A stretch of 64,000 nucleotides of DNA from Gammaproteobacteria bacterium (GTDB lineage Bacteria; Pseudomonadota; Gammaproteobacteria; Xanthomonadales; Wenzhouxiangellaceae). The stretch spans positions 62,001 through 126,000 of the forward strand of contig JAJFKY010000010.1 in the NCBI GenBank assembly GCA_021772975.1, given 5' to 3'. The translations under genes and the position numbers were made by a program. Below are positions 7,436 through 63,378 of this stretch, one piece after another; position 1 is the first letter of the stretch, and each line of letters starts with the position of its first letter. A model generated the notes under the pieces. That model made no database searches. It was not told the origin of the DNA and was given only the letters and a program-made list of their open reading frames with translations.

Positions 7436-9262
7436 CTAGATGTCAGTCATCTCACCATCTTGAATGCGGACCTTCTGACCACTGAACAGGGTCAGTTCAA
7501 ATCCGTCAAACGTTTCGTTATAGGTCCGGCTGTAATCGCGCAATACACCCAGCGCCTGATTCTCGCCGATAAAGTTACCCCGACCATCCGAGCGCCAATG
7601 CATACCGGCGGCATCCCGGGCGTGGGTAATATTGGCCACCAGCTTGTTGAGTTCGCCACCCACCGTCAAAGCCCCTCCTTCATACGGCGTCAGACGGCTG
7701 CCGGTGCGGTTGGACTGGACCGGATTGGGAATCTCAAAATCTTCGTTGAAAAATGCTTTCAGCAAAGTAGCGGCGGCGGCGACAAAAGTCGAATGGCCGC
7801 CCGGATAAGCCGGATGAGCTGGTGAGCCTTCCGGATAACCCATCGGCAATAACGCTGCATTGGCAGGACCACTGCCAAATTCAGACATGACTCTGGCCAG
7901 GCCGTTGGAGTCCAGAATCTCCTGGTGAATGTCGTATTCGCGTAGACCACGCATTTGTACGTTGATGCGGCCGGCATAAACCTCCGGACGCAGGCGCCGG
8001 TGCGCCAGCCATTTCTGATACCATGCTCCGGTCAGACCCAGGCGTGGTCCATGCGTGACCAGATGGGTGATATCCGCGGGTCCAAACGTTGCGAAACCCT
8101 GCTGGGTGTTGCTGATATTGCTGAGATAAGGATTGCCCGGATTGAATGCAGCTTCTCCATAACCGAGCAGAATAAACGCGGCATACAAACCTGTCTGAAC
8201 CGGAAAGTCGACGTGCACAAACTCACTCAGCTGACGCATGGTCGCCAGATGCCGGGTCGAGACCTGAAAGTTAGTCGATGCGCTGGGTGCTCCACCGTTC
8301 TGAATATTCAGCCACTCGCTGAAATTGGTCATAAAATCATTGCGCCGGCCCTGCCGGGGTGGCCGGAACTGCTGCCCGACCCGTGGGCTTCTGCCTGCCG
8401 CGATGGCACTGACTTCGCCTATTTCAAGCCGGCCAATAGAAAATGGCTGCAATAAAAACTGACTGACAAACGGTCCGACTTCAGCACCCGGCAAGGTACC
8501 ACGGAACAGCGTATCGGGTGTGACCACACCGCCATCCCGCAGAAAAATATCCGCGCGGGAGAAAGCGTTCAGGTCAGCGGCGGCAGCGGAGATATCACCA
8601 TTGCTGTCATACTCACTGAACGGCACATCACGGGTCAGTGAATACCAGTACAGCTCACCCATTTCCGCGGCCGTTTCCGCACTGGCGAAAGTCGGAGCGG
8701 CCAGCATGCGGGGATCGTTGCCATCCACGCCGAACAATTCAAATGCATAGGCGGCCTGCGGGCTGACCAGACGGATGCGGCCGGTTTCATTCGGGTTGCC
8801 AACGATAATGTTTTCAAAATCGTCGTTGTCGCCACTTTCCAGCGCATTCAGGAAAGAGTTATAGGAAGCCGGCTCAACCTCACCGACATCATTGTGCAGC
8901 AATGACTTGGAAAAACTGCCTCGGAAATCATCGTACAGGCCTTCATCACCGCTCACCGGCTGGACATCCGGCCCGTTTTCCAGCGTTAGATAAGTTTCCG
9001 CCGCATCAACCCTTAATTCAAAAGCATCCAGCCGGCGATCAGCCCGTGCTGAACCGAACACCGGATGCATCCCGGAACCGTCCATCGCCATGGCGTTATT
9101 GCTGAAACCGGTACTGGCCGCAGCCACTACCGCGGCACTCGCACCGCCTACCAGAACGTCTCTGCGGTTAAACATCAGGCCGCTGTCCTGAGTGGTAACA
9201 CTGGCGCTATCGGGAAGTGGTGAGTGGTCTATATTGGTGTCTTTAAGTTTATCATCGTGCAT
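7436..9262 (-). CDS. Tat-exported vanadium-dependent haloperoxidase-like protein (paralogue 1)
   Basis: A 608-residue PAP2/vanadium-haloperoxidase superfamily protein. Characterised relatives use H2O2 to oxidise halide at a vanadate centre. Residues 30-59 are a twin-arginine signal (NRRDVLVGG, RR33-34, hydrophobic stretch, then AMA). The active-site residues follow bromoperoxidase spacing: K417 and R425 in KWLAHRRLRPE, H483 and H490 in HPAYPGGH, R549 and H555 in HARDAAGMHWRSDG. The usual Ser of the PSGH motif is Gly488. An acid-phosphatase-like activity of the same fold cannot be excluded. AGAGGT precedes the ATG. The gene is flanked by terminators and so is probably monocistronic. It is roughly three-quarters identical by eye to the next gene. 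Confidence 0.88.
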   Translation of the reverse strand: MHDDKLKDTNIDHSPLPDSASVTTQDSGLMFNRRDVLVGGASAAVVAAASTGFSNNAMAMDGSGMHPVFGSARADRRLDAFELRVDAAETYLTLENGPDVQPVSGDEGLYDDFRGSFSKSLLHNDVGEVEPASYNSFLNALESGDNDDFENIIVGNPNETGRIRLVSPQAAYAFELFGVDGNDPRMLAAPTFASAETAAEMGELYWYSLTRDVPFSEYDSNGDISAAAADLNAFSRADIFLRDGGVVTPDTLFRGTLPGAEVGPFVSQFLLQPFSIGRLEIGEVSAIAAGRSPRVGQQFRPPRQGRRNDFMTNFSEWLNIQNGGAPSASTNFQVSTRHLATMRQLSEFVHVDFPVQTGLYAAFILLGYGEAAFNPGNPYLSNISNTQQGFATFGPADITHLVTHGPRLGLTGAWYQKWLAHRRLRPEVYAGRINVQMRGLREYDIHQEILDSNGLARVMSEFGSGPANAALLPMGYPEGSPAHPAYPGGHSTFVAAAATLLKAFFNEDFEIPNPVQSNRTGSRLTPYEGGALTVGGELNKLVANITHARDAAGMHWRSDGRGNFIGENQALGVLRDYSRTYNETFDGFELTLFSGQKVRIQDGEMTDI

Positions 9263-9569
9263 GGTTTTACCTCTGTCTGCTTTTATCCATTGTCAGCTTT
9301 TATGATGGTCAGCTGTCAGTTGCCACCATTTATTATATCCGCCGGTTTAAGGCGGTTTTTTTATTCAGCGCAGGGAGTGAGCTATCACTTATCAGGGGGC
9401 AAACCGCATTTTTACAATCAGACAAAGCGATAGAATAAATAACAGCACATCTTCCCTACTGTTGAAAGTGCTGTCTTACAGCATGCTACTTTAGTCTATT
9501 TTTTTTTGCAATCAGCATACTGGCGGCTCAGCAGCATTAAAACCGGCGCCTGCCGTAACAACGGAGACG
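9263..9569. other. Upstream region of haloperoxidase 1, with an orphan plus-strand hairpin
   Basis: No gene is visible between the two haloperoxidases. At 9339-9362 there is CCGCC, a 7-nt loop, GGCGG and seven Ts, which reads as a terminator on the plus strand although no plus-strand gene ends there. The rest is A+T-richer than the flanks and should hold the promoter of the minus-strand gene at 9262. I see no confident -35/-10 pair. Confidence 0.45.
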
Positions 9570-9605
9570 AAAAAAATCCCGCCTGCGCCAAAGCACAGGC
9601 GGGAT
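9570..9605 (-). terminator. Rho-independent terminator of haloperoxidase gene 2
   Basis: A 10-bp stem (ATCCCGCCTG at 9576-9585 with CAGGCGGGAT at 9596-9605), followed on the minus strand by six or seven Ts. It lies 21 nt past the stop of the second haloperoxidase. Confidence 0.85.
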
Positions 9606-9625
9606 GATACATGGGAAAATCTTAC

Positions 9626-11455
9626 TCAGATATTGGTCATTACACCATTTTGGATGCGTACCTTTTGACCACTGAATAAAGTCAGCTCAAAACCATCAAA
9701 CATTTCGTTATAGGTCAGGCTGTAGTCACGCAGAATGCCCAGTGCCTGGGTTTCACCGATAAAATTACCCAGGCCATCTGAACGCCAGTGCATACCAGCA
9801 CTATCGCGTCCATGGGTAACGTTACCCACCAGTTTATTCAACTCGCCACCTACCGTCAGGGTCCCGTTATAACCAATCAGGCGCGTACCGTTACGATTGG
9901 CCTGCACCGGGTTGGGAATTTCGAAATCCTCATTGAAGAAGCCCTTCAGCAGGGTCGCCGCGGCGGCCACAAACGATGAGTGACCCCCTGGATAAGCAGG
10001 ATGGGCAGGCGAGCCTTCCGGATAAGCCATGGGCAACAAACCGCGGTTGCGGGCCTGGCCGGTTTCATTACGCGCAATCACCCGCGCCAGCGCCTCCGAA
10101 TCAAGAATTTCCTGATTGATGTCATAATCGCGTAAACCACGTAATTGAACATTAATCCTGCCCGCCATCACTTCAGGACGCAGCCGTCGATGAGCCAGCC
10201 ATTTCTGATACCAGGCACCGGTCAGCGCCAGCCGTGGTCCGTGCGCAACAATATGGGTAATATCAGCAGGGCCGAAAGAGGCGAAGCCTTGCTGAGTATT
10301 GCTGTTGGCACGGGTATACGGGTTATTGGGCGCGATCGCATCTTCGCCGAAACCCAGCAGTACGAATGCCGCTACCAGCCCCGACTGAACCGGAAAATCG
10401 ACATGCACATACTCACTCAGCTGACGCATGGTAGCGATATGCCTGGGCTGATTTTCAAAACGTGTGGACTCACTGGGAGCGCCGCCGTTCTGGATGTTCA
10501 GCCATTCATCAAAATCGGTCATGAAATCGTTGAACGGATCACGCCGGGGCGGTACAAACTCCTGTCCGGTGCGTGGCCGTCTGCCGTTCGCCACGGCCGC
10601 CACATCACCCACTTCCAGCCGGCCGAAAGCGTAGGGCTGAAGCAAAAACTGACTGACAAATGGCCCGACATCCGCGCCCGGTATGGTGCCGCGATAGACC
10701 GTTTCAGGTGTTACCACACCACCATCCCGCAGGAAAATATCCGAACGGGAAAAAGCATTCAGATCACTGACCACCTCAGCAATGTCACGATTTCTGTCAT
10801 AGTCCACGAACGGCACATCACGGGTCAGTGAATACCAGTACAGCTCACCCATTTCAGCCGCCGTCTCCGCACTCGCGAAGGCTGGCGCCGCCAACATGCG
10901 GTTGTCACCGCCATCCACCCCGAATAATTCAAACGCGTAGCCTGCCTGTGGGCTGACCAGTCGTACCCGGTCAGCATCGCCAGGGTTACCGACTATGATG
11001 CTTTCAAAATCCACCGGATCAGCGCTGTCCAGTGCATTCAAAAAAGAGTTATAGGAGGCCGGATCGACTTCGCCGACGTTATTGTGCAGCAGTGTTTTGG
11101 AGAAACTGCCACGAAAATCGGCGTACAGACCTTCATCGCCGCTGACCGGTTGCACGTCCGGGCCATTATTCAATGTCAGGTAACTTTCCGCTGCATCCAC
11201 CCGTAACTCGAATGAATCAAGCCGCCGATCCGCGCGGCTACCGCCAAACACAGGGTGTGAACCAGAACCACCCATGGCTGAAACCGGGGTACTGAAACCA
11301 GTACTGGTTGCTGCTACTACCGCGGCACTGGCACCACCCAGCAGGACTTCTCTGCGGTTGAAGCCTAACATTGTCTCAGGGTTGCTGTCTGACTCGCTCT
11401 GAAGATTGCTTTCCATCATTTTATTTTCTACGATATTTTTCGTATTGCTATCCAT
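9626..11455 (-). CDS. Tat-exported vanadium-dependent haloperoxidase-like protein (paralogue 2)
   Basis: A 609-residue tandem paralogue of the gene at 7436-9262, colinear over its whole length, with the N-terminal 30 residues and the region around residues 160-240 the most diverged. The Tat signal is FNRREVLLGGASAAVVAA (RR34-35), ending near VSA60. The predicted active site is K418, R426, H485, G490-G491-H492, R550 and H556, the same set as in paralogue 1, including Gly for the vanadate-contacting Ser. No metal-binding lid domain or fusion is seen. It has its own upstream region (11456-11855) and its own terminator, so the two copies can be regulated separately. Halide specificity cannot be read from sequence; phosphatase activity is the main alternative. 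Confidence 0.88.
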   Translation of the reverse strand: MDSNTKNIVENKMMESNLQSESDSNPETMLGFNRREVLLGGASAAVVAATSTGFSTPVSAMGGSGSHPVFGGSRADRRLDSFELRVDAAESYLTLNNGPDVQPVSGDEGLYADFRGSFSKTLLHNNVGEVDPASYNSFLNALDSADPVDFESIIVGNPGDADRVRLVSPQAGYAFELFGVDGGDNRMLAAPAFASAETAAEMGELYWYSLTRDVPFVDYDRNRDIAEVVSDLNAFSRSDIFLRDGGVVTPETVYRGTIPGADVGPFVSQFLLQPYAFGRLEVGDVAAVANGRRPRTGQEFVPPRRDPFNDFMTDFDEWLNIQNGGAPSESTRFENQPRHIATMRQLSEYVHVDFPVQSGLVAAFVLLGFGEDAIAPNNPYTRANSNTQQGFASFGPADITHIVAHGPRLALTGAWYQKWLAHRRLRPEVMAGRINVQLRGLRDYDINQEILDSEALARVIARNETGQARNRGLLPMAYPEGSPAHPAYPGGHSSFVAAAATLLKGFFNEDFEIPNPVQANRNGTRLIGYNGTLTVGGELNKLVGNVTHGRDSAGMHWRSDGLGNFIGETQALGILRDYSLTYNEMFDGFELTLFSGQKVRIQNGVMTNI

Positions 11456-11855: not shown

Positions 11856-12995
11856 TCAACCGGCATCGGCGCTGGTCTGGGCAACGATCTGAATCGGCTG
11901 GCCCGGCTGCAGGCGTTCTGCACCGCGCACCACGATTTCATCACCGACCTGTAAACCGTTCAGTACTTCTACCAGATTCCCCAGACCCATACCGGTTTCC
12001 ACATCAATCTGCTCGACATTGTTTGCATCGATCACCCGATACACAAACTGGCGCTCGCCCCGCAACACCAGCGCGTCGCGGGGGATAGTTACATCGGGCG
12101 CATAACTGTGCTCCGGCAGGCCTACCTGTACCGGGCTACCGATTCGCCAGGCAGGGTTGTCAGCATGCACGCGCATTTCAAACATGCGCGAATTTTCATC
12201 GGCCACCAGCGTGACCGCTTTGATTCGCTCCTGACTTTCCAGCCTGTCAGCACGCATATTGACCGACATGCCTTCCGCGACATTGCCAGCCATCTGCAGA
12301 GGCACCTGTACGCGCACTTCGCGATTGTCTATATCCACTAACCGGGCCACTTCGGCGCCTGCGTTGACGTGCTCACCCATCTGTACCATCAGGCTGACCA
12401 ACTGACCATTGAAGGGGGCCGAAACATTGGTGCGTTCCAGCTGTACTTCGCTTAACTGCAGTTGAATTTCCGCCTGAGCCAATTGTTGACGCACCACTTC
12501 AGCCTGTGAGCGGGTTTCTTCCAGTTGACTGGCGGCCACGCTGTTATTGCTGCTCAGGCTTTCCAGACGCTGCAGTTGTCTGTCCTGATAATCCAGCTGC
12601 GACCTGAGACTGTCGAGCTGGCTTTGATTGTTGTCACGCTGCAACTGCAGCTCCCGGTCATCCAAACGCGCGATCGGATCGCCCGCCTGGATCATGCTGC
12701 CGATATCCGCTATCCAGGTGACGCGGCCGCTTTGCTCGGCGGCAATCCGTGCATCGTGACTGCTGATCACGGTACCCGGCAACCATTGCAGGGCAATCTG
12801 TTCGCCGGAACTGGCCCGTGCGGTGGTCACCAAAGCAGGTGGCGGACCCTGCGGCTGTCCCTCCTGGGCAACACTCTGCGCGGCTGCCGGCGGCACGCCA
12901 CCATCGCCGGATATTGTCCAGATCAGTACCGCTGCCAGCAGCACCAGGCCGCCCGCCGCCGAAGCCGTGAATAAAGTTTTCTTATGCTCTGACAT
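11856..12995 (-). CDS. RND efflux periplasmic adaptor subunit
   Basis: A 379-residue membrane-fusion protein linking an RND pump to an outer-membrane channel. Residues about 7-30 are a membrane anchor. A barrel-sandwich (lipoyl-like) half-motif (EQSGRVTWIADIGSMIQAGD) leads into a long coiled coil (about 110-180) rich in Gln, Leu and Arg. The second half-motif (SAPFNGQL) and the beta-barrel and membrane-proximal domains follow. I chose the ATG at 12995 because AGGA lies 6-7 nt upstream, rather than an earlier ATG at 13019. It is downstream of the permease in one operon, the reverse of the commonest order. No outer-membrane factor gene is present, so a shared TolC-like channel is inferred. Confidence 0.9.
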   Translation of the reverse strand: MSEHKKTLFTASAAGGLVLLAAVLIWTISGDGGVPPAAAQSVAQEGQPQGPPPALVTTARASSGEQIALQWLPGTVISSHDARIAAEQSGRVTWIADIGSMIQAGDPIARLDDRELQLQRDNNQSQLDSLRSQLDYQDRQLQRLESLSSNNSVAASQLEETRSQAEVVRQQLAQAEIQLQLSEVQLERTNVSAPFNGQLVSLMVQMGEHVNAGAEVARLVDIDNREVRVQVPLQMAGNVAEGMSVNMRADRLESQERIKAVTLVADENSRMFEMRVHADNPAWRIGSPVQVGLPEHSYAPDVTIPRDALVLRGERQFVYRVIDANNVEQIDVETGMGLGNLVEVLNGLQVGDEIVVRGAERLQPGQPIQIVAQTSADAG

Positions 12996-13035
12996 GTTGA
13001 TTCCTAACAGATGAGACATGCTTGATTAAGGGGCC

Positions 13036-16000
13036 TCAGGCGGCCGATTCCAGAACCGGGATTGGTGTGTGCGCCGCTTCAACGGCAACCGGTTTGGGTT
13101 TGCCCAGGCGCAACAGACTGGGTAACAGCAACAGGGTAAACACCAGACTACAGGCCATGCCACCCACTATGGCGGTGGCCAGGCCACGGTAGATCACACT
13201 GCCTTCAGCGGGCAGCAGCAACAACGGCAGCATTCCGAAAATGCTGGTTAACGTGCTCATAAAAATCGGCCGCAGGCGCAACCGCAAAGCCTGTTCGACA
13301 GCGGCATCACGGGACAGGCCCTCACGTTCTGCCCGGCGTGTCTGGTCAACCAGTAAAATGGCGTTGTTGACCACCAGGCCGAGCAGAATAATAAAGCCGA
13401 TCATGGTCAGTAAATCCATCGGCTGGAAACTGAACAGATTCAGCAGGCGCAGAGCAACCACCCCGCCCACGGTTGCCAGCGGGATGGTCAGCACCACCAG
13501 CAAACTGTCCTTGGGCGAGCGGAACAGGCCTGACATCAATAGAAACAGGATCACCAGCGCCATCAAAAAATTACGTCCCATGGTGCCGATAGCTGCCTGC
13601 AGGCTGTCGGCGCTACCGCCATAAATCAGCGCTCCATCGGCCGGCAGAATCGCACGGATACCGGGTTCCACATCGGCTTGGATGGCCGCCACCGCGGTTT
13701 CCAGTGAAACATTATCCGGCGGGGTGAGTGAGACCGTTACCGTGCGCCGGCCTGACACCCGCCGAATCTGGCCCGGGCCGGTGGTATTGACAACTTCCAC
13801 CAGGTTTCCAAGCGTGGTGAGCGCATTGCCATCCGCCTGACCGGCAGCCGCCAGAGGATTGATCACCGGCATACTGGCCAGCTCTTCAGGCGTTTCCCAA
13901 CCCCCGACGCGCATGATGATATCCATCCGCCGCTCACCGTCGAAATGCTCGCCCAGCCACTGGCCATTACCAAAACTACGTACCAGGGAAGCCACCCCGG
14001 GCCGATCCCAGCCGGATTCCACGATGCGCTCGTCGCGCGGCAACAGGCGGATTTCCGGCTGCCCGCCCTCACTGTTCGGGAACATCTGAACATTGGCGCC
14101 GGGGAAAGTCTGCTGCAGTAATTCCCGGGTCCGCAGGGCAGCGTTATTGAGTGCTTCCGGATCCACTGCCTGCAGATGCAGGGCAATATCACGGCCATTG
14201 CCAAAACCACCGAAAAGATTGCCCTGTTCGGCAAAGCCCTGGAAATCGGGTATGCCGGCCAGGATTTCATTGCGCATGATGGTTTCCAGTTCCTTGACCC
14301 GGCTTTGCTCGACCACCCGCGCCCCGATGGTGCCACCACCCGGCCAGATAATGATGTAGTAATTTTTTAAGGCGGGCTGTTTGGTGCCTGCCATGTAGGG
14401 CGCCAGGCGCTCAACAATAGGGTTGACCACCTCACTTTCCACCGTATCAACGTTGGCGCCCGGCGGCATATTCAGAAAAGCATCAACCGCGTCACGTTTA
14501 ACCGGTGGCAGATAATCCAGTTGCGGCATCAAGATCCAGGCCAGCAGCGCCGGGCCAAGGATCAAACCACCAATCAGGCCCCAGCGCCGCGCTGGAGAAC
14601 CCGTCACCAGCATCAGGCTTTTGATTATCCGCCGTGACCAGCCAGGCTGGGTAGCGGCATTGTCTTTATCGGTCAGTTTTTTAGGCTTCAGCCAAGTGCT
14701 CGCCAGGGCCGGCAAAACGGTCAACGCGACCACCAGGGAGATCACCACGGCAATCGCAATGGTCAGCGCCAGATCAGCAAATAACTGACCTTCAACATCC
14801 TCCAGAAATAATACCGGGATGAAGATCGCCACGGTGGTGGCAGTTGAGGCCAGCAGTGCGCCCTGCACCTGTTTAGAGCCCAGCAAGGCTGCCCGGAACG
14901 GAACTTCACCCTGTTCTCGATGCCGGACAATGTTTTCCGACACCACGATCGCGGCATCCAATACCATCCCCACGGCAAATGCCAGGCCAGCCAGTGAAAT
15001 GACGTTCAGGGAACGGTCCGCCAGAAATAGCACCGTCACCGTCGCCAGCAGAGAAATGGGAATGGCGGTGGCAATGACGACCGTGGCCCGGCGATCGCGA
15101 AGGAACCACCACAAAACACCAATCGCCAGAATCACGCCCAATATCAAATTGGTCGTCACCATTGCCACCGCACGCTTAATGAATACCGAGGCATCGAATG
15201 ATTGCCGGATATCCAGGCCGGCCGCCTGCAGCGGGCCGGCACGAATCAAATCAACTTCCGCCTTAACCCGTTCCAGTGAAGCCAGTGCGTTGGCTCCATT
15301 GGCTTTTAATACCTGAATCCCGATCGCCGGATTACCATTCTGGATGGAAAATCCCTGACGCTTGCCGCGCGCCACTTCGATATCCGCGATGTCTCCCAGA
15401 TGCACCGGACTGCCATTGCGCCAGTCCAGCACCATATCGCTGAGTTGCGCAGGGCTATAACGGCCTTCAAACCGCAGCGTGTACTGCCGTCGGCCGACAT
15501 CCACAAAACCACCGGAGACATCATTGGCGCGACCCGCGCGGGCCGCGATGGTGGGAATGCTGATGCCGTACTGAGCGGCCCGGTAGGGGTCAATGGTAAT
15601 CTGCAGCTCATCGGCCGCGCCGGCATTGATTTCCACACCGGCAACACCTTCAATCGCCTCCAGACGTGGCCGGATGGTATCGATAAGAAACTGTTGATAA
15701 TCTTCAATCGGACCCGGCGTGCCGGGTAATAGCTGGACAAAAAACCAGGTCAGTGATTCATTGGCACCGCCGCCACCGCCACCCATGTTGACACGGGGTG
15801 GATCAGCATCTGCGGGTAGCGGTGGCAAACGGTTCAAACGACCGATAACATCCATCAAGGTGGTCTGCATATCGGTCCCAATCGTAAACTGCATATTGAT
15901 CCAGGCGCCGCCGTTGAAGGCATTGGCCTCCATGATCTCCATGCCCGGCAAACCCTGCAGTACGGTCTCAATCGGCTCCAGAATCTGCGCCTCAATCTCT

Positions 16001-16170
16001 TTGGGTGAGGCGGCCCGCCAGTTGGCATTGATGCTGATCTGCGGGCGTTCGATGTTGGGAAACAGCTGGACCGGCAGATCGCTTAACGCCACCAGACCGA
16101 ACAGCAATACGATGGCCACGGCGACGCCGATACCGGCAGGACTTTTTAAAGCAGTTTCTGTCAGAGCCAT
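13036..16170 (-). CDS. RND-family efflux permease
   Basis: A 1,044-residue inner-membrane transporter of the AcrB/hydrophobe-amphiphile superfamily, driven by the proton gradient. It has the typical plan: TM1, a large periplasmic loop beginning PNIERPQISINANW, a TM2-6 bundle, a second loop, and a TM8-12 bundle. In TM4 the motif is GMVLDAAIVVSEN, with D405 present but Ala at the second acidic position (AcrB D408). In TM10 the AcrB K940 position is Asn (GLVVNNAILLVD, N935). These substitutions are shared with several RND subfamilies, so the proton relay is of the single-Asp type. The substrate is unknown. A glycine run near residue 130 precedes NESLTWFFV. The adaptor follows 40 nt downstream. 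Confidence 0.92.
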   Translation of the reverse strand: MALTETALKSPAGIGVAVAIVLLFGLVALSDLPVQLFPNIERPQISINANWRAASPKEIEAQILEPIETVLQGLPGMEIMEANAFNGGAWINMQFTIGTDMQTTLMDVIGRLNRLPPLPADADPPRVNMGGGGGGANESLTWFFVQLLPGTPGPIEDYQQFLIDTIRPRLEAIEGVAGVEINAGAADELQITIDPYRAAQYGISIPTIAARAGRANDVSGGFVDVGRRQYTLRFEGRYSPAQLSDMVLDWRNGSPVHLGDIADIEVARGKRQGFSIQNGNPAIGIQVLKANGANALASLERVKAEVDLIRAGPLQAAGLDIRQSFDASVFIKRAVAMVTTNLILGVILAIGVLWWFLRDRRATVVIATAIPISLLATVTVLFLADRSLNVISLAGLAFAVGMVLDAAIVVSENIVRHREQGEVPFRAALLGSKQVQGALLASTATTVAIFIPVLFLEDVEGQLFADLALTIAIAVVISLVVALTVLPALASTWLKPKKLTDKDNAATQPGWSRRIIKSLMLVTGSPARRWGLIGGLILGPALLAWILMPQLDYLPPVKRDAVDAFLNMPPGANVDTVESEVVNPIVERLAPYMAGTKQPALKNYYIIIWPGGGTIGARVVEQSRVKELETIMRNEILAGIPDFQGFAEQGNLFGGFGNGRDIALHLQAVDPEALNNAALRTRELLQQTFPGANVQMFPNSEGGQPEIRLLPRDERIVESGWDRPGVASLVRSFGNGQWLGEHFDGERRMDIIMRVGGWETPEELASMPVINPLAAAGQADGNALTTLGNLVEVVNTTGPGQIRRVSGRRTVTVSLTPPDNVSLETAVAAIQADVEPGIRAILPADGALIYGGSADSLQAAIGTMGRNFLMALVILFLLMSGLFRSPKDSLLVVLTIPLATVGGVVALRLLNLFSFQPMDLLTMIGFIILLGLVVNNAILLVDQTRRAEREGLSRDAAVEQALRLRLRPIFMSTLTSIFGMLPLLLLPAEGSVIYRGLATAIVGGMACSLVFTLLLLPSLLRLGKPKPVAVEAAHTPIPVLESAA

Positions 16171-23511: not shown

Positions 23512-23751
23512 ATGCTGCAAAATATCAGTGCCGTACAACTCATTATCCTTCTCGCTATAGTCCTGTTGGTATTTGGCACCAAACGGCTGCGCAACCTGGG
23601 CAGCGACCTGGGCACCGCCATTCGCGGCTTCCGCAAAGGCATGAGCGAAGAAGATGAAGATGAATCCAAACAGCCAGAACAGTTAAGCAACAGCGCTGAC
23701 GACGACTCCATCAACACCAAAAACAATACCCACAAAACGCACTCCGGTTAA
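23512..23751 (+). CDS. tatA: Sec-independent protein translocase subunit TatA
   Basis: A 79-residue pore-forming subunit of the twin-arginine translocase. One N-terminal membrane helix (about 5-20) is followed by the family motif [20 protein letters not shown] and an acidic, disordered tail ([12 protein letters not shown]). It is the first of the tatABC genes, 9 nt before tatB. The two haloperoxidases 12-14 kb away carry Tat signals and are plausible substrates. Confidence 0.95.
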
Positions 23752-23759
23752 ATTCCGCC

Positions 23760-24149
23760 ATGTTTGATATCGGCTTCGGTGAACTTGTCATCATCGGCCT
23801 TATCGGGCTGTTGGTGCTTGGTCCGGAGCGGCTGCCCGGGGTTGCCAAAACACTGGGTGGTTTTGTCCGCAAGGCACGCCGCACCTGGCATCAGATGCGG
23901 GTTGAGCTGGAATCTGAAGTTGATCGTTCCCGGATTCGGGATATCAAGAACGAAATGACCGAAACCCGCAAACAGTTGCGCGAGTCGGTTCAGGCCGCCG
24001 ACGACTCGTTACGTCAGACGGGTGATAAACTGCAGCAGACCGTTAACGAAGTCAGTCAGCCCACTACCGGTTCCAAAGCCAGTCCCCGTGCCGGCACCGC
24101 TGCAACCAGCAATAACGGCTCATCCCCGGATAAACCCTCTGATCAATGA
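23760..24149 (+). CDS. tatB: Sec-independent protein translocase subunit TatB
   Basis: A 129-residue subunit that recognises the twin-arginine signal together with TatC. Start MFDIGFGELVIIGLIGLLVLGPERLP is the typical TatB N-terminus, with Glu8 in the membrane helix and the Gly-Pro hinge. A charged amphipathic region (KARRTWHQMRVELESEVDR) and a Gln/Ser/Thr-rich tail follow. The stop overlaps the tatC start by four bases (ATGA). Confidence 0.95.
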   Translation: MFDIGFGELVIIGLIGLLVLGPERLPGVAKTLGGFVRKARRTWHQMRVELESEVDRSRIRDIKNEMTETRKQLRESVQAADDSLRQTGDKLQQTVNEVSQPTTGSKASPRAGTAATSNNGSSPDKPSDQ

Positions 24150-24910
24150 GTACCGACACCGACACTGATCGCGAGCAGACGCTGCTCGAACACCTGCTGG
24201 AACTGCGCAACCGGATCATGTGGTCGGTGCTGGCGGTGGTTGGTGCAACGCTGGTATTGCTGCCATTCTCGCAGGAAATCTATTCATTCATGGCGGAGCC
24301 GATGCTGCGCCACCTGCCAGCCGGCAGCAGCATGATCGCCATCGATGTGACCACACCTTTTCTGACCCCCTTCAAACTGACTTTGATGTGCGGGCTGGTG
24401 GTGGCTATTCCGGTGATCATTTATCAGTTCTGGTCGTTTGTAGCGCCGGGGCTGTATGAGAAGGAAAAGCATCTTGCCAAGCCACTGCTGGTCTCCGCGA
24501 CACTGCTGTTTTATCTGGGCTGTGCGTTTGCTTACTACGTGGTGTTTCCGGTGGCGTTTGAATTCTTTACCCGCATGGCCCCCGAAGGCGTGGCGGTGTC
24601 TACTGATATCAGCAGCTATCTGCAATTCATCCTATCGCTGTTTTTTGCTTTCGGCATCGCCTTTGAGCTGCCCATCGCCATTATTATTCTGGTCGCGCTG
24701 GGCGTCACTACGCCGGCCAAACTGGCCACCAAAAGACCTTACATCTTTGTTGGAGCGTTCGCTGCCGGCATGCTGCTGACACCACCGGATATTATCTCCC
24801 AGACACTGCTGGCGATTCCCATGTGGATGCTGTTTGAGTTTGGTCTGGTGTTATCACGGGTGCTTGTTACCAAACCCCGCGAGCAGGCTGAAACGGATAG
24901 CCCGGACTGA
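24146..24910 (+). CDS. tatC: Sec-independent protein translocase subunit TatC
   Basis: A 254-residue six-helix membrane protein, the receptor core of the Tat system. The signature LLEHLLELRNRI at the cytoplasmic N-terminus is the twin-arginine contact site. FWSFVAPGLYEKEK and the periplasmic-cap/TM regions (FFTRMAPEGVAVSTDISSYL) match the family. Translation is coupled to tatB by ATGA. It converges on the deacetylase gene, with only 5 nt between the two stops. Confidence 0.96.
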   Translation: MSTDTDTDREQTLLEHLLELRNRIMWSVLAVVGATLVLLPFSQEIYSFMAEPMLRHLPAGSSMIAIDVTTPFLTPFKLTLMCGLVVAIPVIIYQFWSFVAPGLYEKEKHLAKPLLVSATLLFYLGCAFAYYVVFPVAFEFFTRMAPEGVAVSTDISSYLQFILSLFFAFGIAFELPIAIIILVALGVTTPAKLATKRPYIFVGAFAAGMLLTPPDIISQTLLAIPMWMLFEFGLVLSRVLVTKPREQAETDSPD

Positions 24911-53424: not shown

Positions 53425-54633
53425 TTAGCGAAAACCCGCCACCGTGGCAGCACGCTCGCGATGGACGCGATCGTTATCGCTGAAGCTGGTGGTGCCAAAC
53501 GGAAAGCCGTTGAAGGTGAAGTCCGGGTTGGAGAAACCACCCACTCGCGGTAAACCGGTGCTGGTGGTGCCCATGATGGTACGGAAGTTACCGGCACTGC
53601 TGGCTAAACCATGACCGTATGAAAACGGTGTAGTGGTGGGATCATTCTGGTGGCGGGCGCCAAACAGATGACCGACTTCATGCACGAAAGTGAAATCAGT
53701 ACAGGTGTATTTGACCACGAAAAAACCGTTGCTCGCACCGCCGCCAATGGCGTTAACAATACCGCAGATGCTGGGGTCGTTGGGCGTGGCCACGATCATA
53801 CCAACCAGATCCGCGGATATCGAGTTGCGGGTACTGTTGGCCAGCGCATCATTAAAGCCATCGTTTAAATTCTTCAAACCCGAAGCATTGGATTGAGCTG
53901 TACTGCGCTCATTATTGGTAGCCCGATACAACCCGGCACTTTGCATATTGATATCGATACCGGTGGCCGAATAAGCCTGATTGGACTGAGAAATAAAGAA
54001 GTTCATCCGGTCCACGATCGGACTCACCCCACCGGCCGCATTGATAGCCGTGTTAGAGGCAATCTGCATCACCCGGACGGTGCTGGTCATACGCGTGGCC
54101 GCGACCTCTTCAGCAGCTATAGCCAGCTCGGATTTAGGCGTATCATCGGCATAGCCCAACTGAGTGAAGTCTCTTTCCGCCAGTACATGCTGACCGTTCT
54201 GCAGGGTGCTGATCTCATAAATTTTATCGGCCAGGCGAATCTGGCCAAACAGCCGGTTCCCGCTGACGACAAAGTTGACCAGGTCGCTTACCACCTCATT
54301 GGAACCAGGGCTGCGCGGTACATCAATGCTGCCATTCCAGGAATAATAGCCTCCTTCCATATCATAATTGTGTGTTTGCTGGACGATATAACTGTCGCCG
54401 CCGAGATTAAAATTAAACGCCGGAGCATCCTTGCTCAACGCCTGCATATTGACGGCCACAGCTTCAATGAAACTTGAGGACTGGCTTAAATCGGCGATCC
54501 CCGGCTGGCTGCTGATATCCACCGGGGCTCTGAGATTGCTCAATAAATTGGGGGCTTGTGTCTGTGCCTGGGTGTTACCGCATAAAGCCGCGGTGATAAA
54601 CAGCGTCAGGCAGACGCTTTTTTTAATTGACAT
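53425..54633 (-). CDS. Secreted reprolysin-like zinc metalloprotease (metzincin, M12)
   Basis: A 402-residue exported protease. Signal peptide MSIKKSVCLTLFITAALCGNTQAQ, then an N-terminal pro-region-like domain (about 25-180) and a catalytic domain. The zinc motif is H318-E319-VG-H322-LFGAR-H328, the long HExxHxxGxxH form with Ala before Arg-His. The Met-turn follows as FRTIMGT. Two cysteine-bearing stretches (SICGIVN, KYTCTDF) just before the motif resemble related secreted metzincins. ATG 54633 has AAGGAG 9 nt upstream. No secretion ATPase is nearby, so Sec plus a general route is assumed. It may supply peptides for the adjacent receptor. Confidence 0.88.
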   Translation of the reverse strand: MSIKKSVCLTLFITAALCGNTQAQTQAPNLLSNLRAPVDISSQPGIADLSQSSSFIEAVAVNMQALSKDAPAFNFNLGGDSYIVQQTHNYDMEGGYYSWNGSIDVPRSPGSNEVVSDLVNFVVSGNRLFGQIRLADKIYEISTLQNGQHVLAERDFTQLGYADDTPKSELAIAAEEVAATRMTSTVRVMQIASNTAINAAGGVSPIVDRMNFFISQSNQAYSATGIDINMQSAGLYRATNNERSTAQSNASGLKNLNDGFNDALANSTRNSISADLVGMIVATPNDPSICGIVNAIGGGASNGFFVVKYTCTDFTFVHEVGHLFGARHQNDPTTTPFSYGHGLASSAGNFRTIMGTTSTGLPRVGGFSNPDFTFNGFPFGTTSFSDNDRVHRERAATVAGFR

Positions 54634-55299
54634 GATCCATGTCTCCTTTATTTTACTTTCCATAGCGAATGTAACCTTGAGAGCGAGCGAACCCGCTGGA
54701 AGTTACTCCTGACTTACAAGTACCACGAAATTTCCATGTTCCGCAAGAGGCAGGACATCGATTAAAGCCTCGCTGAAATGCTTAATGCGCATGCGCTTAT
54801 GCCAATCAGTTATTACTAACCGCGGTCATGCTCCAGTCGAAACCAGGCATTGCTAATAATTATGGAATATATTCACAAAGCCTTCACGATATATGCCTGT
54901 TAAAGCCCAAATAAATATAAATAAAATTGACCTTAGTAGTTAAATTTGAAACTAATTGGCAGGCAATCTCACTATCGTGATTTTTTAAAAAAATAACCGG
55001 ATAAGACCCATTAATCATCAGAATAAAGCCGCAAATTGACTGCACGCATTCAATTTTGCGCTTACTGCAGTACGGATTCACCAGCAAATGAATCCCAGCA
55101 GCACGCCAATCATGCTTGATCTCACCCGTGGATTTACCTTCATCAACGATAAATACTCTGGGATTCCGAGCGGTTATTCTGGCTTCAAATGCCCCGCACC
55201 TGGATGCTATGCCAGGTACATTTTGCTGGCTGTATTTTTGCTGATAGCGATTGCCAGCCCGGTAACCACCGCTGACTGACAACCACTGTCAGCTGCTGA
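54634..55299. other. A+T-rich intergenic region without a supported gene
   Basis: From about 54720 to 55080 the base composition drops well below that of the neighbours. A minus-strand frame of 132 codons (54884-55282) and a plus-strand frame of 63 codons (55088-55279) are open but overlap each other on opposite strands. Neither has a recognisable domain or a clear ribosome site, and the minus frame ends in a low-complexity NFIYIYLGF run. I treat this as non-coding or as the decayed remains of an insertion. Confidence 0.4.
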
Positions 55300-61362: not shown

Positions 61363-63378
61363 TTAACGCGTTAACAAAGGCGCAATAACCAGGCTGACAA
61401 TCGCCATCACGTTGATCAGAATGTTCATCGCCGGGCCAGAGGTATCCTTGAATGGATCGCCCACGGTATCACCAACCACTGCCGCCTTATGCACATCTGA
61501 TCCCTTGCCTCCGTAGTTGCCTTTTTCAACAAACTTCTTGGCGTTGTCCCAGGCGCCACCGGCATTGGCCATGGTCAGCGCGAGCAACACACAGGAAATC
61601 AGCGCGCCAGCCAGCAGGCCGCCAAGAGCGTGTGCGCCTAACACGAAACCGACCACAATCGGTGAAAATACCGCCAGCGCGCCGGGCAAAATCATCCGCT
61701 GCAAAGCTGCACGCGTGGCGATATCAATGCAACGGGCATTATCCGGTTTACCTGTGCCTTCCAGTAGACCGGGGATTTCTTTGAACTGACGACGAATTTC
61801 ATGAATCATTTCAAACGCGGCATCACCCACCGCACGCATGGTAATGGCGGATACCAGAAACGGGAAAATACCGCCCAGGAACATCCCCATCAGCACATTC
61901 GGATTGCTGATATCCAGCGTGAATCCGGGAATATGAATGGCCACGGTTTTGATAAACGCCGCGATAATCGCCAACGCCGCCAAACCCGCCGCACCAATCG
62001 CAAAACCTTTGCCGATCGCAGCCGTGGTATTGCCCACTTCATCCAGGCCATCGGTGATTTTACGGGTTTCCTCGCCCAGACCGGCCATTTCAGCAATCCC
62101 GCCGGCGTTATCCGCCACCGGACCATAGGCATCAATGGCCATGGTGATACCGACCGTAGCCAGCATACCTACTGCACTGATACCAACACCGTATACACCG
62201 GCGCCTTCCGGCAATAGGAAACTGGTGATAAAAATGATCGCTGCGATAATCAACACCGGCCCAACCACTGATTCCATACCCGTCGCCAGGCCGGAAATCA
62301 TCACGGTTGCCGGGCCGGTCTGGCCGTCTTTGGCAATATCCCGAACCGGCTTACCGCCAGTGTAGTATTCGGTAATCAGTCCGATGCCAATGCCACCAGC
62401 CGCGCCGGTAACCACACACCACCAGACATTTACGCTAACGCCCAGCGCGGAAACAATAAACCAGGCCGCGCCAATAAAGATCACCGCGGCACCAAATGTT
62501 CCAAAACGCAAGGCTGCCGCCGGTTCAGCACCAGAGGCCATGCGTACGATCAGAATGCCCAGAATCGAACACAGCAGGCCACCGGACGCCAGTGCCAAAG
62601 GTAAAAACATCAGCATCTGCTGCTGCCCCATCACCGTGGTGGCGGCAAAAGTACTGGCAATGGCGATACAGGCGATCATGGAGCCACAATAGGATTCGAA
62701 AATATCTGAACCCATACCCGCCACGTCACCCACATTGTCACCGACGTTATCGGCGATCACGCCCGGGTTACGCGGATCATCTTCGGGAATGCCGGCTTCA
62801 ATTTTACCCACCAGATCAGCGCCCACATCAGCACTCTTGGTGAAGATGCCGCCGCCTACGCGTGAAAACAGCGCTACCGTCGATGCGCCCATGCCAAAGC
62901 CATGAATGGCTTCCGCATGCTGTGGGTCACCGCCGAAAAAGTAGTACAGACCGCCCAGACCAAGCAGACCCATCGCGGCTACCGTCAGGCCCATGATCGA
63001 ACCGCCGTAGAACGCTACCGACAATGCTGCCGCTGGCCCTTCCGTGGCCGCCGCCGTAGTGGTACGCACATTGGCCCGGGTAGCGGTATACATGCCGATA
63101 TAACCGGCGATCGCTGAGCTGAGCGCACCGGTCACGAAGGCCGCAGCGGTATGCCAGCTAGGGAAAGCAAAGAACAGACCTATCGCCAGCACCAGTGCAA
63201 AGATGCCCAGAATAGAATATTCACGCTTCATGAAAACCATGGCGCCATCGTGAATCGCCTCAGCGATTTCCGCCACCTTGCCCTCGCCGGCAGGATAACG
63301 TTTGACGACCAGGTATATGATAAACGCTGCCAGCAAACCGAATACGCCCAGTAGTGGCGGTATAAGTGATTGATTCAT
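61363..63378 (-). CDS. hppA: Membrane-bound ion-translocating pyrophosphatase
   Basis: A 671-residue, roughly 16-helix pump that hydrolyses PPi and moves H+ and/or Na+. The catalytic loop is complete: [37 protein letters not shown], with the DNVGDNVGD motif. In TM12 the motif is [14 protein letters not shown], with Ala in place of the Lys found in K+-independent enzymes (GNTTKA), so K+-dependence is predicted. The end [23 protein letters not shown] is the second PPi site. It may save energy or pump Na+ in a saline habitat. Monocistronic by its terminator. Confidence 0.95.

Follow-up and report, generated by a model that had tools for sequence, protein, structure and literature searches.

AmVHPO, the vanadium haloperoxidase (VHPO) of the bacterium Acaryochloris marina, brominates 53% and chlorinates 8% of monochlorodimedone as wild-type enzyme, and halide choice in VHPOs is reported to be governed outside the first shell and to depend notably on the residue three before the vanadate-site lysine, although no single residue explains the choice; this residue is arginine in AmVHPO and the Corallina enzymes and tryptophan in the chlorinating enzymes of Ascophyllum and Curvularia (PMC11871015, available in part, as were the other papers cited here). 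Two VHPO signatures have been printed, PxYxSGHA and LxxxxAxxRxxxGxHxxxD (PMC10427571), and according to the available part of PMC12871659 there are no established patterns for VHPO mining. Gammaproteobacterial VHPOs that carry secretion signals and are not part of biosynthetic clusters have been described, including one that brominates alkyl quinolone signals, and an action on the surrounding chemistry has been suggested (PMC8407465). Here we compare with these enzymes a tandem pair of VHPO genes, W1 and W2, located in a stretch of 64,000 nucleotides (the window; positions 62,001 to 126,000, forward strand, of contig JAJFKY010000010.1, GenBank assembly GCA_021772975.1) from a gammaproteobacterium of the family Wenzhouxiangellaceae. 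The pair is a known enzyme kind with a small local variation, not a new enzyme. We are fairly confident that both proteins are extracytoplasmic VHPOs of the Ascophyllum/Acaryochloris (AnVBPO/AmVHPO) family that would be exported by the twin-arginine translocation (Tat) pathway and would use H2O2 to oxidize bromide, perhaps also chloride, outside the cytoplasm.

Family membership and vanadate-site residues

The two genes are full-length and lie in tandem, as a preliminary description of the window had proposed, and both are on the minus strand:

7436-9262, minus strand: W1, VHPO copy 1, an open reading frame (ORF) of 608 amino acids with a twin-arginine N-terminus
9626-11455, minus strand: W2, VHPO copy 2, an ORF of 609 amino acids, upstream of W1
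7799-7801, minus strand: codon of W1 Gly488, which corresponds to Ser416 in Ascophyllum and to the motif Ala of AmVHPO
9986-9988, minus strand: the equivalent Gly codon in W2

The two products share 76% identity across an alignment of 601 residues and represent the sole VHPO matches at E <= 0.01 in the 3.74 Mb genome. Compared with PDB sequences, W1 gave ten matches at E <= 1, all of them VHPOs, with the Ascophyllum nodosum bromoperoxidase (1qi9) as the best (E 4.1e-71). More distant VHPOs matched weakly (Zobellia iodoperoxidase, E 0.0032; Curvularia chloroperoxidase, E 0.37), so that the glycine cannot be placed by sequence against those groups. An AlphaFold2 model of W1 based on a 58-sequence alignment (mean pLDDT 86.7; residues 1-32 and 39-65 below 50) superimposed on 1qi9 over 521 aligned residues with Z 48.8 and a root-mean-square deviation of 2.2. 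Z was 47.6 for 5aa6, 42.8-45.9 for the Corallina enzymes and 40.5 for AmVHPO (5lpc), and about 11-18 for NapH-type, Zobellia and Curvularia VHPOs; the fold of the model was also compared by Foldseek. An NCBIfam search returned no match.

Alignment to 1qi9 equates W414, K417, R425, H483, G488, G489, H490, R549 and H555 of W1 with W338, K341, R349, H411, S416, G417, H418, R480 and H486 of the Ascophyllum enzyme. The bromoperoxidase-type spacing described before was recovered, with K417-x7-R425, H483-x6-H490 and R549-x5-H555 in W1 and their counterparts at the aligned positions of W2, as was the PGGH of both copies, which read HPAYPGGHS. All checked vanadate-site residues are kept in the pair except at the serine position. 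In an alignment with relatives (91 sequences, 88 after removal of three exact duplicates), K417, R425, H490, R549 and H555 are identical in every readable row except one, which lacks H490. Residue spacing, whole-length sequence similarity and predicted fold agree, and on this basis W1 and W2 are bromoperoxidase-type VHPOs of the AnVBPO/AmVHPO sequence family.

Trp414, three residues before the lysine, is present in 66 of the 87 readable rows and is a better clue to halide than Gly488. Seven relatives (loci L012, L013, L031, L040, L046, L053 and L089; six read P-A-A-H and one P-S-A-H) have alanine in place of the glycine before the catalytic histidine, a glycine whose backbone contacts vanadate in characterised enzymes.

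The residue at the serine position

Serine stands at the position of Gly488 in the algal and fungal enzymes (1qi9 and 1qhb sequences; Ser402 is named for Curvularia in PMC10278073). The position is readable in 87 of the 88 rows, L091 being gapped there, and these include three PDB entries (Ascophyllum Ser, Corallina Ser, AmVHPO Ala). In this sample, which is skewed to close relatives (loci found with the patterns EMGE[LV]YW and GAWYQKW, genome searches queried with W1 or W2), all readable rows comprise 74 Ala, nine Ser and four Gly, and the 84 prokaryotic rows, the window's two included, comprise 73 Ala, seven Ser and four Gly. The alignment A2, made before relatives from further genome searches were included, gave 50 Ala, five Ser and three Gly among 58 sequences, namely W1, W2 and 56 ORF matches (L009 and up) spanning more than 400 residues; L061, L049 and short pieces were excluded, as were the G010 fragments L007 and L008 (L007 reads PAGHA), and L003-L006 duplicate L009, L027, L055 and L011. 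Within this branch of bacterial enzymes the Ser of the signature PxYxSGHA is therefore exceptional (7 of 84), and most enzymes of the sample would escape a search that relied on the signature.

The preliminary description had considered the glycine a Ser-to-Gly change whose sharing by two diverged copies suggests a functional subgroup, not a mutation, with altered halide choice, phosphatase activity or a different anion. Glycine does contrast with the algal and fungal serine, but the direction of change proposed for the lineage was wrong. In a tree of 73 rows (a quick search with trait columns kept, 1qi9 having a long branch and an uncertain placement), W1, W2 and L009, the single VHPO copy of one other genome of the window's genus, which also has Gly, form one clade (SH-aLRT 100) within a 38-row group that otherwise has only Ala. 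This nesting suggests that, most simply, Ala changed to Gly once and the window's genus inherited it. Sharing by the two copies consequently adds little as evidence, since one fully supported clade inherited the residue once. The subgroup thus stands as far as inheritance is concerned, both paralogues and the genus relative having Gly, whereas the proposed change of activity is not supported: AmVHPO, crystallised and active (5lpc), reads HPSYGAGHATV with Ala at the serine position, and because Ala is also the commonest residue in the prokaryotic rows, loss of the serine hydroxyl alone does not predict altered activity.

PGGH, for which the description had also allowed that it might prove universal and already characterised in close bacterial relatives, occurs with an intact histidine only in the window's genus among the 87 readable rows. 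The available parts of PMC11871015, PMC11433219, PMC13198595, PMC10427571, PMC10278073, PMC12871659 and PMC8407465 do not mention either Gly or Ala for the serine position, a weak negative given their partial coverage, and a literature search for Wenzhouxiangella and haloperoxidase found no paper. The fourth Gly row is L080:1267-3225, a VHPO-like protein from an 8 Mb genome of another class of the phylum, which reads FHSTYPGGAT and has Ala in place of the catalytic histidine. It keeps the lysine, both arginines and the axial histidine, its frame is intact and its TGA is consistent with an end stop. Having lost the catalytic histidine, it is not a comparable site, and the protein is a candidate non-haloperoxidase descendant.

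Among the other 84 rows, 101 columns show conservation of 85% or more, and the genus trio (W1, W2 and L009) departs at nine of them: 104, 208, 265, 488, 491, 495, 497, 542 and 554. Gly488 is accompanied by an Ala-to-Ser change at 491, directly after the catalytic histidine, by Ala495 and Ala497 and, at a laxer threshold, by Val494. In the region 488-497, the start of the catalytic-histidine helix, four of seven conserved columns are changed compared with 5 of 94 elsewhere at threshold 0.85 (Fisher p 0.00095), and five of eight compared with 7 of 113 at 0.80 (p 0.0002); the region was picked post hoc and only these three sequences carry the changes. We consider it unlikely that the PGGHS helix of the genus marks a functional shift, in which the hydroxyl moved from 488 to Ser491 or the pocket was re-tuned in halide preference, vanadate affinity or substrate access. 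Such a shift would accord with the concentration of changes in 488-497, with the occurrence of both Gly488 and Ser491 in all three genus sequences and with the altered positions 542 and 554, near Arg549 and His555. Ser491 lies three residues, about one helical turn, after Gly488 and could in principle stand in for the missing hydroxyl at the vanadate contact. However, the contrast weakens at thresholds 0.90 (2 of 5 versus 4 of 78, p 0.04) and 0.95 (2 of 4 versus 3 of 56, p 0.03), one of seven control pairs (L019/L036) reaches p 0.004, and among 84 single rows L080 (p < 0.01) and L089 (p 0.043) are conspicuous as well. One further relative, L066, moreover combines Ser491 with Ala488, and Gly488 and Ser491 are therefore not tied. 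That the genus VHPOs rebuilt this helix, with Gly for Ser/Ala in the anion pocket and Ser shifted to after the histidine, to give an altered halide or peroxide preference unlike that of any characterised VHPO, seems improbable to us.

PAP2 and class A acid phosphatases carry the motifs K-x6-RP and PSGH. It is most improbable that W1 and W2 are extracytoplasmic phosphatases of this kind and not haloperoxidases: the fold is common to VHPOs and PAP2 phosphatases, acid phosphatases reach Z of about 12-14 with the W1 model and PAP2 is the only Pfam family touched, but its scores of 14.9 and 14.0 bits stay below the gathering cut-off of 27.2, the whole-length matches are VHPOs, and the pair reads K-x7-RP, the spacing of the Ascophyllum enzyme, and PGGH, with H483 (Ascophyllum His411) kept. 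The window's genome (99.9% complete) yielded no Pfam PAP2 member at E <= 0.001, while 11 of 14 control genomes have one.

Gene layout, relatives and probable export

The DNA around W1 and W2 has the following features:

7413-7384, minus strand: terminator-like hairpin after W1, 13 pairs and a T-run
9605-9576, minus strand: terminator-like hairpin after W2, 13 pairs and a T-run
11856-13019, minus strand: RND membrane-fusion-protein-like (MFP) gene directly upstream of the pair (label from translation)
13036-16170, minus strand: RND efflux-pump-like gene (label from translation)
23512-23751, 23760-24149 and 24146-24910: tatA-like, tatB-like and tatC-like ORFs (labels from translations)

Each N-terminus carries a twin-arginine motif (NRRDVL, NRREVL), and the features of a Tat substrate, i.e. 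twin arginine, hydrophobic stretch and an A-x-A-like site, were recognised by eye in NRRDVLVGGASAAVVAAAS...AMA and NRREVLLGGASAAVVAATS...VSA. W1 and W2 are probably Tat-exported. The tat-like ORFs indeed lie 12 kb away, as had been noted, but the export of a Tat substrate does not depend on how far away the Tat genes are, and their nearness therefore counts for little.

An own terminator and an own upstream region had been assigned to each copy. Strong terminator-like hairpins do follow both copies; a scan of both strands found seven terminator-like sites compared with a mean of 5.7 in shuffles, and the W1 and W2 hairpins have the most pairs of all, the next best having nine. Separate promoters are not supported, since no sigma-70-like promoter was found on the minus strand. 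The upstream regions of W1 and W2 resemble each other at chance level only (E 0.21 or worse), and a GAGGT site precedes the start of both reading frames.

In the genus relative (L009, OFTM154), a single VHPO gene occupies the equivalent site behind the MFP gene, in the order sensor-kinase-like, response-regulator-like, FKBP-like, RND, MFP, VHPO, 689-amino-acid gene, TamA-like and TamB-like (labels from reading). This VHPO is 80% identical to W2 and 76% to W1; judged by position and sequence, W2 is its positional counterpart and the closer one. The site of the second copy is occupied in L009 by an unrelated, secreted-looking protein of 689 amino acids with a PKD-like C-terminal part (L009:10464-12533; label from translation). 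Co-occurrence of the pair in related genomes, raised as a check in the preliminary description, was not observed, the pair not being conserved between the two genus genomes compared. The second copy appears to be a duplication of uncertain age, and the branching order of W1, W2 and L009 is unsettled. Of 43 genomes of the family, six had a VHPO match, as had 16 of 398 in an order sample, 14 of 369 in a class sample, 3 of 398 in a phylum sample and, in the class to which G437 belongs, 3 of 385. The samples are not independent: they overlap, the window's genome is counted in each except the last, and G437 was already known to match.

Of the 55 loci compared, the genus relative alone showed linkage of RND/MFP pump genes to a VHPO, in a neighbour survey that is rough (unequal loci, some cut at contig ends; ORFs of at least 110 residues; a greedy ORF choice that missed the VHPO in a few loci). 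Among the genes of the window's first 20 kb, only the VHPOs and an FKBP-like gene (L060) have homologues next to VHPO genes of other genera, and within this survey no neighbours of the pair were found beside L027, L011, L039 and L055. A neighbour family common to five loci is, to judge from its coordinates in L056, apparently a frame antisense to the VHPO gene; other families reach four loci at most. A dedicated system, inferred from tatABC nearness, RND pump linkage and the pair, was dropped, as among these loci the linkage occurs only in the genus relative and the pair is absent there.

Tandem VHPO ORFs also occur in two metagenome-assembled genomes of Gemmatimonadota, three in L043:7197-14760 and two in L047:1-4698, most of them extending far upstream of the VHPO part (read from stop to stop, starts not set). 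Elsewhere in the window, 61363-63378 encodes a 671-amino-acid membrane protein resembling a proton- or sodium-pumping pyrophosphatase, and 53425-54663 a secreted-looking protein of 412 amino acids with HEVGHLFGARH, a metzincin-type zinc protease motif (both labels from reading only).

Proposed role and comparison with known enzymes

From the genes, their residues, the predicted fold, the relatives and the synteny, we infer export, vanadate binding, halide chemistry and role as follows. The folded protein would be exported by Tat and would bind vanadate via His555 (axial), Lys417, Arg425, Arg549 and the backbone of Gly489, with His490 as acid-base residue, by analogy with characterised enzymes. 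Uptake of H2O2 would give a peroxovanadate that oxidizes bromide to hypohalous acid; chloride oxidation is also possible, since Trp414 matches the tryptophan of the chlorinating Ascophyllum enzyme. The hypohalous acid would act on molecules outside the cytoplasm, be they competitors, signals or surfaces. Gly488 should leave this chemistry intact, as the side chain lost is only a methyl in most sampled relatives, and the changes at Ser491, Ala495, Ala497 and Val494 probably repack the catalytic-histidine helix.

Several observations weigh against this assignment as exported, halide-oxidizing enzymes. (i) Of 87 ORFs of relatives, some of them fragments, 55 show a loose twin-arginine pattern, so that either some family members are not exported or their signals escape detection. 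(ii) No characterised enzyme with Gly at the serine position was found. (iii) It is at the catalytic helix itself that the genus sequences deviate from residues conserved in the other rows, which makes a shifted activity of the genus enzymes possible. (iv) The low dN (0.166, nonsynonymous) relative to dS (1.94, synonymous) between W1 and W2 suggests that both copies are maintained by purifying selection, which speaks for the assignment, but dS is near saturation and the ratio is therefore rough; in the comparison with the genus relative, W2 gave a dS of 4.69 and W1 gave no estimate. (v) W1, W2 and L009 fail both printed signatures, as does the accepted member AmVHPO. PxYxSGHA, which the PAYPGGHS of the pair does not fit, is matched by seven rows out of 87, including two algal sequences. 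In LxxxxAxxRxxxGxHxxxD, matched by 44 of 87 rows, Thr546 replaces Ala in all three genus sequences and the other fixed positions fit. Given the 7 of 87 rows and the failure of AmVHPO, we do not take PxYxSGHA as defining the sequence family.

The Gly488 finding itself is modest, a minor variation of the catalytic helix confined to one genus in the sample; of greater use is the rarity of the signature Ser in this bacterial branch. Gly488 completes a natural series of Ser, Ala and Gly at one vanadate contact in sites that are otherwise intact, in which the role of the hydroxyl is directly testable.

The Ascophyllum bromoperoxidase resembles the pair in its vanadate-site spacing and in the tryptophan three residues before the lysine, in addition to being the best PDB match in both sequence and fold; it differs in being eukaryotic and in having Ser416 for Gly488 and Ala419 for Ser491. 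AmVHPO (5lpc, 8q20-8q22) is bacterial like the pair, of the same family and fold, and also lacks the serine, but has Ala instead of Gly and Arg instead of Trp three residues before the lysine. The VHPOs of Wenzhouxiangella and Lysobacterales (L027, L011, L039 and L055) are about 47-52% identical to W1 with the same vanadate-site spacing; they read PAGHA where the pair reads PGGHS and are the single match per genome where searched (G002, G005 and G007). No biosynthetic cluster is apparent around the pair among the ORFs read, no formal search having been made. In this and in their putative secretion signals, W1 and W2 resemble, by description only, the secreted VHPOs of the type found in Microbulbifer sp. 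HZ11 (PMC8407465), and by analogy the pair would fit the role of secreted VHPOs that act on their surroundings.

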